DNA of 64,000 bases from positions 1 through 64,000 of the forward strand of contig NZ_JABASU010000010.1 in assembly GCF_016107555.1 (NCBI RefSeq), in the 5' to 3' direction. Origin of the DNA: Psychrobacter celer. Its GTDB lineage: Bacteria > Pseudomonadota > Gammaproteobacteria > Pseudomonadales > Moraxellaceae. This document shows, piece after piece, positions 3,483 through 64,000 of this stretch; the first letter of the stretch is position 1, and the number at the start of each line of letters is the position of its first letter. The translations under genes and the position numbers were made by a program. The notes beneath the pieces are model-generated. The model made no database searches. It saw only the letters and a list, made by a program, of their open reading frames with translations, and was not told the origin of the DNA.

Positions 3483-3681
3483 GGTTATATCCTTTTTAGG
3501 TTTGTCGTTATCGTAGGGTGTGATCTCATTTTTAAAATAATGCTACTGACTTTTAATATAGACAGCCTTACCCTATAACACAAGACGAAAAGCACTAGCA
3601 TCGGTAGCAGTTGACCTTAAAATTAATAGCTGCCACTATTATTAATCTTACGATACTCCTTAGTAACCACTAGAGCATTTT

Positions 3682-4344
3682 ATGGAATTTTGGCACGGTT
3701 TTTTGCTTATCACTAGCGTGCACTTGCTAGCAGCGGCCTCCCCTGGCCCTGATTTCGTCTTAGTTTCACGTGAAACATTAACCAAAGGTCGACGTACCGG
3801 GTTGATTTGTAGCTTAGGGATTACCTTAGGTCTAGCCGTGCATATTATTTATTCGGTGCTAGGACTAGCGGCAGTGATTGCCCACTCACAGCCGTTATTG
3901 ACCGCTATTAAATGGTTGGGCGGCGCGTATCTTATTTATCTAGGTTGGCAAGGAATTGGCGCTAAACCCAAACAACCAGTAGAAACGACCACTTTTACTA
4001 ATAATGTTAATAGCAACAGTAATAGCAATGTTACAGATAAAACTGAATCTAGCTTTGCTACTCTGCGCCGAGGTTTTTTTTGCAACGTTTTTAATCCCAA
4101 AGCGCCAGTCTACTTTGTCGCTATATTTACTTTAGTATTATCACCCGATATTCCGCTTTGGCAACTCTCTATCTACGGTGTATGGATGATGGTATTACAG
4201 ATGGCTTGGTTTAGCACGGTGGTGATGCTATTGTCGATTCCTGTCATCCTCAAACGTTTTCAGCGTTTTGAGCATTGGATAGATCGCGTACTCGGTACAG
4301 CAATGGTTGTATTGGGCTTAAACCTGATCTTCCGTAGCCGATAA
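3682..4344 (+). CDS. LysE/RhtB family amino-acid exporter
   Basis: A 220-residue inner-membrane protein of the LysE/RhtB superfamily, which exports amino acids or homoserine lactones by proton exchange. The N-terminal family signature AASPGPDFVLVSRETLTKGR is present at about 18-37, and there are about six hydrophobic segments. A hydrophilic, Asn/Ser-rich linker (NNVNSNSNSN) lies in the central cytoplasmic loop. A perfect parS-like palindrome (3763-3776) is embedded in the signature and encodes VSRET. Transcribed divergently from the crotonase gene. Substrate unknown. Confidence 0.88.
   Translation: MEFWHGFLLITSVHLLAAASPGPDFVLVSRETLTKGRRTGLICSLGITLGLAVHIIYSVLGLAAVIAHSQPLLTAIKWLGGAYLIYLGWQGIGAKPKQPVETTTFTNNVNSNSNSNVTDKTESSFATLRRGFFCNVFNPKAPVYFVAIFTLVLSPDIPLWQLSIYGVWMMVLQMAWFSTVVMLLSIPVILKRFQRFEHWIDRVLGTAMVVLGLNLIFRSR
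3763..3776. promoter_or_regulatory. parS-like palindrome GTTTCACGTGAAAC, inside exporter gene
   Basis: A perfect 14-bp palindrome matching the ParB-binding parS core. It is about 10.5 kb left of the presumed oriC and is encoded within the exporter as VSRET. Confidence 0.75.
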
Positions 4345-4412
4345 ACCATTTAGCGTTGATGAAATCTGCTAAACTAGACGGTTATCTTCAGACTTTATAG
4401 CCTACTACTACT

Positions 4413-5447
4413 ATGACTAGCAGACCAAACCCTAATAAGCCCCATACAGCGCATAGAAACCGCTCGCCTGAGACCGCGAAAAAACTCGGTCAATTGCATC
4501 CGCGTAATCCGCATCAAGGTCGCTATGATTTTGAGCTATTGACCCGCGCGCTACCTGAACTTGCCGATTACACAATTACCAACCCGAAAGGCGAGCCAAC
4601 GATTAATTTCTCCGACGCCAAGGCCGTACGTGTGCTTAATCAAGCACTACTCGCGCACTATTATGGCGTCAAGTTTTGGGATATCCCTGAAGGTTATTTG
4701 TGCCCGCCGATTCCTGGACGCGCCGATTACATTCATTATATTGCCGACTTGTTGGCGCAGACTACTCATGTGAGCGAAGACAATACGCCGCCTACAGGCA
4801 AAGATATTCATGCACTTGATATCGGCACTGGTGCCAGTGCTATCTACCCTATTGTTGGCAGCCAAAGCTATGGCTGGCGCTTTACCGCGAGCGACATCGA
4901 TCCGGTCTCAGTGAATACGGCGACGGTAATTAGCCAAGCCAATCCTAAGCTCAAAGGCGCGATTAAGGTCAAACTGCAACCTGAACCTAAGCATATCTTT
5001 AAAAATATTATCGGTCGTCAAGACTATTTTGACGTCGTCATATGCAACCCGCCTTTTCATGCTTCATTAGACGAGGCCATGGCCGCCAATAGCCGCAAGC
5101 AGCACAACTTGCAGCGCCATCGCGGCAAAAACGAAAGCGCGCAAATCAGTCGTCACTCTACAAAGTCAGGCAATGCCGCGCAAAACCTTAACTTTGGTGG
5201 TCAACATAAAGAATTGTGGAGTGAGGGCGGCGAGATTGCTTTTTTGAGTAATATGATAAGAGAAAGCCAACAGTTTGCTGCGCATGTAGGCTGGTTTACC
5301 AGTTTGGTCTCAAAGTCTGAAAACGTGAAACCTTTGCAGCAGCTACTAAAAAATATTGATGTGGCGCAAATGCGTATTATTGAGATGAGCCAAGGTCAAA
5401 AGAACACGCGGGTCTTAGCTTGGCGTTTTGATACTAACGAAGCGTAA
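4413..5447 (+). CDS. rlmF: 23S rRNA (adenine-N6)-methyltransferase RlmF
   Basis: A 344-residue S-adenosylmethionine-dependent methyltransferase that fits RlmF (YbiN), which modifies A1618 of 23S rRNA. The SAM-binding segment [12 protein letters not shown] (135-146) and the adenine-N6 signature NPPFHAS (212-218) are clear. The N-terminal lead [13 protein letters not shown] (31-43) is typical of RlmF. A basic, Ser-rich stretch at about 225-255 ([14 protein letters not shown]) is a family-variable loop. Single gene, 68 bp after the exporter gene, ending before a terminator that overlaps a parS-like site. Confidence 0.9.
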
Positions 5448-62058: not shown

Positions 62059-62201
62059 AAGGCTACCATGCTGTTTGGGAGGGTGTTATAAGTTGGTGTT
62101 TAACCAATAAAGTGGGGCTAGTATAGCAAAAGGTTTCTATAAAATAAGCAATATGCGCGGCTGATATTGACTTATATGTCTATACAGGTTGTGAAGTAAA
62201 A

Positions 62202-62306: not shown

Positions 62307-63629
62307 TTATTTGATTCCAAAAAAGAACATTCTTTTATTTGCTGAGCCGATATCTTCAAAATCTATATTGAGATTATCGGTAATCAGTTTTTTTCTAACA
62401 TTTTTAGATGCTGCTATTAAATCTCGCTCAAACTTTGCGCCATTGATAGCCAAATCTTTATTATAGAAGTTCGTATATCCTGAAATAAGTATTCTAAGAT
62501 ATAAACTAAAGTCGACATAGTTACCGCATTCACGTTTAACCTTGGTCATCGATTGGAAACTATTTATTCGTCCTATCGCTTTATCAAAAACTGGTCTAGG
62601 AATTCGTCGTTGATAAGATTGTAGTCTAGCGTTATAAACTATATCAAAGCCTAGGTATGTAAATTTTCCTCTAGCACCATATATTTTGGTTTTCGGTTTT
62701 CCGACTCCCTTTTCAATATCTAAACCAATATTTTTAAGATTTTTTTGAACGTGTTCCTTAATTTTCTTAGCCTTGCTATAAGAGTTATCAAAAATTAGGA
62801 AGTCATCTGCATAACGTATATACGGTATATTGTTCTTAACCATTAAATTATCAAATTCGTACAAATACATTGAAGAACACAATGATGCTATTGGCATGCC
62901 TTGGCGAACACCCTTGCCCTTAAGTTCTTCTAGATATTTTTCTATCAGTTTTTTGTACTTTAGATCGCCATAATCTAGCTTAGCATCGCAATAAATAAAA
63001 CTTTTGAAGATAGCAGTTAGCTCTCTATCTTCATCTGGTCCGATAAACTCTTTTTCAAATTTCTTTACAGCGATTTCTCTATTTATATTATCGAAAAATT
63101 TAACGATATCTGCTTTAATAACGTATTTATACTTGCTCCGATATTCTATAACGTCATCTAAGGCTTTACGAATGCCATGTATAGTTTTCTTAGTTGGCTG
63201 ACCGTCTTTATTTGTCGTATCTATTTCTTTCTTATGAATATCTTTATTCAAGGCGTGGTCATACTCACAGAATCTATCATAGATTTCGCCATAATATTTT
63301 TTAAGATAATCTAAAAATAGTTTTTGAAGGACTCTATCTTGCACTGAGGGGACACACACTAAACGAGTGTTGTCTAACGACATTACGTTAAGACAGTTTG
63401 TTTTAGGCAAAATGATAGGGGTCAAATGATCACAGTTGTACTTAAAATTTGATATTTTTTTACAAATACTATTTAAAGCTTTGTCATTAAAGCTATTTAG
63501 ATATTCATTAACTGTGATGTATTTAGTATGGTAAGAGTTGTCTGCTTTCGACTTGTTTTTAGCGAGTTGATTGAGGGTTGTTTTGAAATTATCTTTCACA
63601 TAGGATGAGAATTTAACCTTATCTGTCAT
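62307..63629 (-). CDS. Reverse transcriptase (RNA-directed DNA polymerase)
   Basis: A 440-residue reverse transcriptase with all core motifs: PSVQDRVLQKLF (94-105, RT1), KADIVKFFDNI with catalytic Asp174 (RT3), GVRQGMPIASL (240-250, RT4), RYADDFLIF with Asp275 and Asp276 (RT5) and FTYLGFDIVYN (323-333, RT6/7). The 110 C-terminal residues are helical and basic, like a thumb domain. There is no maturase X, HNH or integrase domain, and no intron-like RNA around it. RT4 is QGMP rather than the SQ form of diversity-generating retroelements. A standalone RT in low-GC accessory DNA suggests a defence-type (DRT/unknown-group) or retron-type enzyme; which group I cannot say. An unidentified ORF and an inverted-repeat pair precede it. 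Confidence 0.9.
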   Translation of the reverse strand: MTDKVKFSSYVKDNFKTTLNQLAKNKSKADNSYHTKYITVNEYLNSFNDKALNSICKKISNFKYNCDHLTPIILPKTNCLNVMSLDNTRLVCVPSVQDRVLQKLFLDYLKKYYGEIYDRFCEYDHALNKDIHKKEIDTTNKDGQPTKKTIHGIRKALDDVIEYRSKYKYVIKADIVKFFDNINREIAVKKFEKEFIGPDEDRELTAIFKSFIYCDAKLDYGDLKYKKLIEKYLEELKGKGVRQGMPIASLCSSMYLYEFDNLMVKNNIPYIRYADDFLIFDNSYSKAKKIKEHVQKNLKNIGLDIEKGVGKPKTKIYGARGKFTYLGFDIVYNARLQSYQRRIPRPVFDKAIGRINSFQSMTKVKRECGNYVDFSLYLRILISGYTNFYNKDLAINGAKFERDLIAASKNVRKKLITDNLNIDFEDIGSANKRMFFFGIK

Positions 63630-63653
63630 GACTATCTCCCTTGCTTCTATTCA

Positions 63654-63721
63654 ACAAACCTTTTGCAAAAATTCATATATCAAATTTTACTAATAAAATA
63701 AAGAATTTATGCAAAAGGTCT
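63654..63721. repeat. Inverted-repeat pair before the RT gene (MITE-like)
   Basis: AAACCTTTTGCAAAAATTC (63656-63674) and, reversed, AGACCTTTTGCATAAATTC (63721-63703) match at 17 of 19 positions and enclose 28 bp of A/T. ATTCA stands on both sides (63649-63653 and 63722-63726), a possible target duplication if the element begins at 63654. The ends resemble those of the 80-bp element at 761-840. The hairpin could instead work as an RNA structure in the RT leader. Confidence 0.55.
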
Positions 63722-64000
63722 ATTCACTAGATAATCATGACGAAGGTCGAGTGCTCCACGCAAAGTATGAGCAAGCTTTCTTAAGCGTTGAACAATGTCG
63801 CCACTTAAATATAGCGCACGTTTGACACGGTACGTCATATAGCTGTCATATGGAATGATAAGCTCATCTATAACAACCTTACAATCAGTTAAATTGTTAA
63901 CGTCATTTAGAGCCATACCCACCAGTTTTGCGATTTTCTTACGGATTATTTCACTTTTATATATTAACACAAAAGCGTGTGCAATTGTTATCAATACTGC
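63707..64000 (-). CDS. Unknown protein, partial (5' end beyond window)
   Basis: The frame is open to the window edge, so only the last 97 residues are visible; a TTG at 63994 could start a 95-residue form. The visible part is mixed hydrophobic and basic and mostly helical (IIRKKIAKLVGMALNDVNNL, YRVKRALYLSGDIVQRLRKL). I do not recognise it; it is not a clear Avd-type four-helix protein or transposase. The last five codons (NRPFA, stop) are written by the inverted repeat that begins at 63721, so its natural C-terminus has probably been replaced. It is 77 bp upstream of the RT gene, same strand, so the two may have formed an operon. Confidence 0.5.
   Translation of the reverse strand, partial: AVLITIAHAFVLIYKSEIIRKKIAKLVGMALNDVNNLTDCKVVIDELIIPYDSYMTYRVKRALYLSGDIVQRLRKLAHTLRGALDLRHDYLVNRPFA

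Follow-up and report, generated by a model that had tools for sequence, protein, structure and literature searches.

A group-II-like reverse transcriptase of Psychrobacter and Acinetobacter preceded by a repeat-flanked, stop-free membrane-protein unit: a candidate for concatemeric cDNA synthesis

The DNA analysed here, called the window, comprises the first 64,000 nucleotides of a 90-kb contig (G000:C1) of Psychrobacter celer, and close to its end carries a reverse transcriptase (RT) gene whose reading frame is intact from end to end (Table 1). The complete, standalone enzyme with QGMP and YADD motifs described in the first-pass annotation is borne out by a Pfam scan, in which RVT_1 is matched at 7e-24 and no second family is found at E values up to 1, and no Cas1, GIIM, integrase or RNase H domain appears in that scan. 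The ORF noted upstream on the same strand is a genuine open frame, but it had been cut by the window end; once the frame was completed from stop to stop with DNA beyond position 64,000 (locus L003), it proved to be the end of a larger unit in which two 165-nt direct repeats, R1 and R2, lie in one reading frame on either side of a middle segment coding for hydrophobic helices. The repeats are 92.7% identical, have a spacing of 441 nt, and half of the pair lies outside the window. The likely start codon of the transmembrane (TM) protein is found after R1, at contig position 64135. The direct repeats are the key feature of the locus, and the partner of the RT is a repeat-flanked stop-free unit, R1-mid-R2. 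The pair is not a product of chance: a control over 24 loci (347,814 bases), with thresholds of 100 nt minimum length, 90% minimum identity and a spacing below 800 nt, returned 17 direct-repeat pairs upstream of RTs and, besides these, just an unrelated array of tandem repeats in the Acetobacter locus L055.

Table 1. Features at the RT locus; positions are those of the window unless given as contig positions
Feature	Position	Strand	Basis
RT, 440 aa, QGMP and YADD motifs, member of a Moraxellaceae clade	62307..63629	-	ORF and family/profile searches
Two-tier RNA hairpin between R2 and RT, holding the stop codon of the upstream frame	63629..63737	-	fold and covariation
Stop-free frame R1-mid-R2, in-window end (contig 63707-64387)	63707..64000	-	frame reading
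R2, the 165-nt repeat copy nearer to the RT, coding the C-terminal part of the membrane protein	63749..63913	-	repeat search
Middle segment, 3' part (TM-coding), cut at the window end and continuing to contig 64189	63914..64000	-	ORF reading
R1	contig 64190-64354, just beyond the window end	-	repeat search
Promoter-like site	contig 64362-64390, just beyond the window end	-	consensus match

The protein encoded by the unit resembles no described family in the searches made. The 97-aa piece inside the window has no match in Pfam, PADLOC or NCBIfam, the longer L003 ORF has none in PHROGs, and five longer partner ORFs gave nothing above the Pfam cut-off (best E 0.004) and no SLATT match at E values up to 10, in a search whose HMMER filters drop most matches above 0.1. 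TM-like windows were counted by hydropathy in ten units, giving two in six of them, one in two (the window unit among these) and three in the remaining two, and a two-TM topology is therefore only the commonest prediction. AlphaFold2 models were useless both for the R1-TM-R2 ORF (two sequences, pLDDT 37.1) and for the RT (four sequences, pLDDT 31.6).

In order to place the RT we compared it with family models and with solved sequences. The best NCBIfam model is the group II maturase TIGR04416, whose score of 108 bits falls far short of its cut-off (300); at the RT locus Rfam returned no match of any kind, and no intron RNA was found at the gathering threshold, so the assignment as a group II maturase was rejected, as the first-pass annotation had anticipated. 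The Drt3a, retron St85 and Drt2 models score the enzyme at 44-48 bits; these models place it neither in the Drt2 family (NF041746, 44 bits against a curated cut-off of 390) nor, among retron types, in the St85 family (47 against 235). In the PADLOC library the generic RT model PDLC01136 comes first and UG17 second, at 85-139 bits, for all seven RTs of the clade that were scanned; since this library carries no curated cut-off, rejecting UG17/DRT10 membership, for which the SLATT partner is also absent, is a matter of judgement. A profile of the RT found its closest solved sequences in a Cas6-RT-Cas1 protein (4.6e-39), a group II RT (1.1e-31) and the G2L4 RT (1.5e-31), and far weaker matches in 9ioa, recorded as an RNA-dependent DNA polymerase, which we take to be DRT9, and then in Drt2. 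Taking PADLOC, NCBIfam and the solved-sequence matches together, the RT is group-II-like and unclassified by present family models and profile matches.

The locus is an insertion of about 2.3 kb between two genes, named by eye as an ABC-type permease and an aminotransferase, which here stand 2,415 bp apart. Of 20 loci returned by a comparison of the flanks, 18 (our own included) were examined; the second flanking gene lay outside the fetched stretch in 13 of them, and in the five with both genes the gap was 126-135 bp (four loci) or 1,265 bp with other content (one locus), in agreement with the earlier view of this region as accessory DNA. Two other RT loci, L030 and L031, occupy the same site. 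The 1,265-bp gap belongs to another Psychrobacter (L101, genome G255), and because it carries other DNA at this position the site may be a small hotspot. A 26-nt inverted match of 81% around GCAAAAGG, at window positions 62126-62151 and 63641-63666, brackets the RT gene and could mark an element border or be due to chance.

The layout recurs in a restricted set of relatives. A search with the window RT at E 1e-20 over 348 genomes at the Moraxellaceae level found 19 genomes, eight of Psychrobacter and 11 of a second genus, and a profile of nine RTs at 1e-35 found 20. The three named matches to the window RT in genome contigs are all Psychrobacter, and plasmid records add RT loci in Acinetobacter seifertii, pittii, baumannii and soli, both A. 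baumannii "plasmid" records being chromosome-sized. Wider samples gave few matches: two of 390 genomes in the order-level sample at 1e-22, both Psychrobacter; in the class-level sample (369 genomes) our own genome and one weak match, G1029, without a repeat pair; and our own genome alone among 398 of the phylum-level sample at 1e-40. Acetobacter RTs (36% identical to that of L042) have no repeat pair within 1.6 kb upstream. A scan of viral contigs gave eight loci, the nearest being L045, whose RT is 50% identical to the L041 RT and which offers just 168 nt ahead of the RT ORF. Phage records contained no match to the window RT at 1e-10 and none to the L042 unit, and plasmid records none to the Psychrobacter R1-R2 stretch; three Acinetobacter plasmid records match the L042 unit, and in none of them does the PLSDB gene table, itself incomplete, place a gene at the matching stretch.

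Upstream DNA could be read at 25 RT loci of Psychrobacter and Acinetobacter, and R1-mid-R2 stands ahead of the RT in 21 of them, many of these loci being closely related so that the counts are not independent (the near-identical pairs L053/L054 and L041/L081 are counted as separate loci). Two labels were found to denote the same place in the same genome (L018 = L081, L020 = L042); L075, whose contig starts within the RT, L045, with insufficient DNA ahead of the RT, and G238:C15, the other half of the L035 RT, were dropped before counting, and plasmid matches H11 and H16 were left out as presumed near duplicates of H10 and H15. The remaining four loci (L030, L037, L040 and L080) hold a single R whose left flank is that of R1 and whose right flank is that of R2, as if one unit had been deleted by recombination; the RT is interrupted in L080 and intact in the other three. 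The upstream gene is kept with the RT: it is the same eight of 105 Psychrobacter genomes that have the RT and that match the upstream ORF, although one of these (G251, L030) retains R alone. Over the paired loci R measures 122-171 nt and is 93-100% identical inside a locus, from which it follows that the two repeats of one locus evolve together. Five groups of units can be told apart: Psychrobacter; L038; L039, to which the single copies L037 and L040 belong; the L041 group; and the L042 group. Unit proteins match in every within-group pair of the three multi-member groups (21/21, 6/6 and 15/15), there is no protein match between the five groups at E 0.05, and comparison of whole-unit DNA between them gave two 21-nt matches at 0.003. 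L059 (A. baumannii X4-300 record, 3597-5360) has an intact repeat pair, but the central portion of its RT gene, about aa 50-317, runs in the opposite orientation to both ends, owing either to an inversion or to an assembly error.

The analysis of the reading frame revealed a rule that nearly all units obey. Counting one lap from the start of R1 to the start of R2 (in L032, where the repeats differ by one base, the end spacing of 441 was used in place of the start spacing of 442), the unit length is divisible by three in 20 of the 21 loci, with nine different lengths (381, 384, 387, 396, 399, 411, 420, 423 and 441 nt), and each of these 20 units has exactly one stop-free sense frame per lap and no antisense one. 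When eight units were shuffled 2000 times each with dinucleotide content preserved, an endless sense frame arose 0, 0, 0, 1, 1, 1, 31 and 8 times. The exception is L022, whose link, the stretch from R1 to the likely start codon, differs in length by one nucleotide and so breaks the frame; its RT frame is open nonetheless (412 aa). Since conservation of frame is expected of any real gene from its start codon onwards, the independent weight of the rule lies in the part from R1 to the start. This part, R1 plus link, is open in the frame of the TM gene in 18 of 18 loci tested, the link being free of stops in any frame in three of them. An in-frame ATG in or before R1 is absent from 10 of 19 loci, where GTG or TTG codons do occur, which makes chromosomal translation a poor reason for an in-frame R1.

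Differences between loci in the R and TM segments are spread evenly over codon positions, with a third-position share of 0.36-0.39, against 0.53 in a Psychrobacter RT control of similar divergence; a second control with three far more divergent RTs gave 0.39, like R, and the contrast consequently rests on the Psychrobacter group. Selection on R and TM looks, from these substitution patterns, to be mostly against stops and less for a particular protein. R1 and R2 are identical in L041, L042 and L058. In five of the six L042-group loci aligned (L021, L023, L025, L053 and L054) the two copies are near-identical apart from a two- or three-base difference fixed at one site, with one further difference near the 3' end in L025, L053 and L054. 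Islands of three neighbouring bases, at other sites, separate R1 from R2 in L038 and L039; the island is the sole difference in L039, and L038 has three more changed bases. Such a fixed difference could mark which copy the cDNA keeps.

We also explored the RNA that the locus would give. The leader inverted repeat, proposed earlier as a possible RNA structure, measures 29 nt at 83% complementarity (63646-63674 with 63703-63731), and the z score for folding of the 150 nt following R2, within which it lies, is -7. It belongs to a two-tier hairpin with an inner stem of 63706-63722 paired to 63655-63671 and an outer stem of 63729-63737 paired to 63629-63637 that reaches the RT start. The hairpin is conserved in seven Psychrobacter loci with 99.4% of cells paired; eight cells show changes on both sides against 2.7 in shuffled alignments (reached in 0 of 500), and four pairs show a double change, a number attained by 22 of 500 shuffles. 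It is a Psychrobacter feature: in the eight Acinetobacter loci folded the z score of the stretch after R2 is never below -1.7. The consensus fold of the Psychrobacter R itself, taken from alignment A5 (13 of the 14 copies of seven paired loci, L031 R2 being left out), has 15 cells in which both sides have changed, where shuffled alignments have 4.1 (sd 1.5) and 0 of 500 attain 15, and these cells represent few events because the alignment takes both copies of most loci. Further pair types in R show no excess over shuffles (381/500), this being the one measure of the five used for R and the hairpin that failed to exceed them. Folds of single R sequences indicate moderate structure in several loci (z down to -3.5) and a weak one in the L042 group (-0.7 to +1.0) and L032 (-0.5, -1.1). 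A covariance model of the Psychrobacter R, run over 13 loci, has confident matches in Psychrobacter alone, the best other being at E 0.22.

An extended -10-like box, TGnTATTAT (TAAGAT in L034), lies about seven bases ahead of R1 in Psychrobacter, and a transcript start is predicted at R1 -1 to +3 in five of seven loci (not in L029 and L032), among the six best sites per locus. Elsewhere the predicted start lies farther from R1: for the L042 group it is at -20 or -17, for the L041 group at -27 to -31, for L038 at -42 and for L039 at -61. These calls come from a crude consensus scan, in which the site near R1 is top-scoring in only five of 16 loci, and a consensus promoter tool applied to L003 found six sites where 4.1 were expected. 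The weight of the putative promoter would thus lie in its conservation across different genomic surroundings and not in its score. Upstream of R1 in L042, at a distance of about 330 bases, there is a C4 antisense RNA (Rfam RF01695, L042:8074-8161), and a guanidine-I riboswitch is located farther away (L042:2696-2791).

On this basis we propose, at slightly less than an even chance and by reasoning from sequence, that the RT jumps repeatedly from R1 to R2 and makes a concatemeric cDNA for an endless membrane protein. A single promoter just upstream of R1 would give an RNA with its 5' end at or near R1, followed by the membrane-protein segment with most commonly two predicted TM helices, R2, the hairpin and the RT message. 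Reverse transcription would proceed across R2, then the TM segment, then R1. Close to the 5' end of the RNA the growing cDNA, being complementary to R, would anneal once more to R2 and copying would restart, in a strand transfer at R as in retroviruses but repeated, leading to (R-TM)n. Because nearly all units are divisible by three with one stop-free frame, the sense strand of such a concatemer would code an endless protein of membrane hairpins alternating with R domains, and under the two-TM prediction its R domains would all face the same side of the membrane. Its likely role would be that of a phage-triggered, and possibly toxic, membrane effector.

The proposal is favoured by the position of R1-mid-R2 ahead of the RT, the frame rule, the in-frame R1 lacking an ATG in about half of the loci, the low third-position bias, the predicted start near R1, the structured Psychrobacter R, the co-occurrence and the defence neighbours described below. 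Against it, and in contrast to DRT2, the genome already contains every joint of the concatemer, and the chromosome could itself supply a single TM-R2 protein; the advantage of a concatemer would then have to be copy number or a polymeric protein, and not a new promoter. The frame break in L022 beside an open RT, the four single-R loci (three with an intact RT), the consensus-only nature of the promoters, the weak R folds in the L042 group and L032, the third-position share of the divergent-RT control and the varying TM counts also weigh against it.

The same RNA could serve otherwise. R may be the noncoding RNA or template of the RT, with an R cDNA antisense to, or binding, the product of the R2-ended TM gene, so that RT, cDNA and TM toxin form a toxin/antitoxin set like that of retrons or DRT10, and R1 and R2 are alike because the cDNA must match both. 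The structured and covarying Psychrobacter R, an R identity that is strong within a locus and weak between groups, and the likely TM start codon after R1 all agree with such a scheme, and DRT10 is described as having a 137-nt ncRNA upstream of its SLATT gene and RT (PMC12632851); however, it gives no reason for an in-frame R1 or for 20 of 21 stop-free units divisible by three, and we regard it as unlikely. One continuous frame over R1-mid-R2 is what would be expected of a SLATT-like membrane effector with the same domain at both ends, translated from the chromosome and kept alike at its ends by recombination while the RT uses another RNA, and membrane effectors beside RTs are known, as in UG17 with SLATT_5 (PMC8934634). 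We nevertheless consider this duplicated-domain protein rather improbable, for it is opposed by the 10 of 19 loci without an in-frame ATG in or before R1, by the five ORFs without a Pfam family above cut-off, by the little constraint at the protein level and by the R1/R2 homology beginning at the predicted transcript start in five of seven Psychrobacter loci.

Recombination might also be the function of the repeats, acting as a DNA-level switch in which R1 x R2 exchange deletes or amplifies the TM unit (zero, one or more copies) beside a merely linked RT. Four loci do resemble one-unit deletions, as seen for L080 against L041, but none of the 25 has two or more units (short-read assemblies could hide tandem copies) and the tight link with the RT in the same eight genomes would be left unexplained; this we hold to be distinctly improbable. 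Finally, R2 at the 3' end of a coding frame with a near copy beside the RT recalls the variable and template repeats of diversity-generating retroelements, R1 being the template repeat and retrohoming the process. Such an element was rejected in line with the first-pass annotation, as the differences are not adenine-specific: 29 of 92 R1/R2 differences over 13 pairs (L022, L025, L054 and L059 left out of the count) start from A in R1, three loci have identical copies, and DGR models are not among the best matches of the RT. We give this reading hardly any credence.

The logic of the repeated-transfer proposal resembles that of DRT2. DRT2 (neo) systems, which work by rolling-circle reverse transcription, are reported to jump between short matching motifs and to write in this way a tandem gene that lacks stops and has a unit length divisible by three (PMC12039810, PMC11100668), a frame rule reported for 42 homologues (PMC12039810). 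The two systems share an RNA template beside the RT, matching motifs that flank the template and a unit divisible by three with one stop-free frame over the junctions, the latter being found here in 20 of 21 units. They differ in that the DRT2 motifs are described as a 3-nt ACA and the unit as about 120 nt, whereas the repeats and TM-coding units here are 122-171 and 381-441 nt long; moreover, the endless frame here lies on the strand of the RT transcript, the junction makes no new promoter, and the RT stands outside the Drt2 family. DRT10, composed of a UG17 RT, an ncRNA and SLATT, is reported to use a telomerase-like A-B-A' template (PMC12632851), and is similar in its RT, its membrane-type partner upstream and the idea of a repeat-flanked template. 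By analogy R1-TM-R2 resembles an A-B-A' template of very large size, with whole repeats as A and A', a gene as B and an A that starts near the predicted transcript start, in contrast to DRT10 with respect to SLATT, which has no match here, and UG17, whose model ranks second. Group II, G2L4 and CRISPR-associated RTs supply the closest solved sequences, yet neither Cas1 nor GIIM nor intron RNA at the gathering threshold accompanies this enzyme. The comparison with retroviruses concerns the repeats themselves. The retroviral terminal repeat R supports first-strand transfer, and R resembles it as a direct repeat of which one copy begins close to the predicted transcript start and the other lies farther downstream; the window RT differs in lacking integrase and RNase H domains in the Pfam scan, and the jumping is here a putative one.

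It is possible, although we lean somewhat against it, that these loci form an undescribed class of RT system in which an RNA with long terminal repeats would be copied repeatedly by strand transfer into a tandem gene encoding a polymeric membrane protein of open-ended length, in a separate group-II-like lineage, so that endless-gene synthesis would have evolved more than once. Stop-free gene writing by reverse transcription would then have been reached by at least two RT lineages and would not be a peculiarity of DRT2, it would be done here with retrovirus-like repeats and a membrane protein, and the loci would show how partners of this kind escape annotation, as the L042-unit matches in PLSDB do. 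No RT with such a repeat-flanked unit was found among the titles and abstract openings of the open-licence literature, a coverage outside which subscription papers and most preprints lie, and a prior published description is possible.

A role in anti-phage defence is suggested by analogy and by the neighbours of some copies. The L041 RT adjoins a type IIG restriction enzyme; the Acinetobacter plasmids L053 and L054 carry a gene directly after the RT (L053:5315-6046 and L054:5315-6034), the L053 copy matching AbiEi at 2e-28; and the neighbours of L058 are annotated as DarT, with a weak match of 2e-6, and a restriction subunit S. As for the tandem array returned by the repeat control, it is exact, lies on an Acetobacter plasmid (L055:6044-6359) with shifts of 100, 150, 200 and 250 bp and a unit of probably 50 bp, and sits inside a gene annotated as a DNA damage-inducible protein, the place of which is taken in the similar L056 by two type ISP restriction/modification genes.
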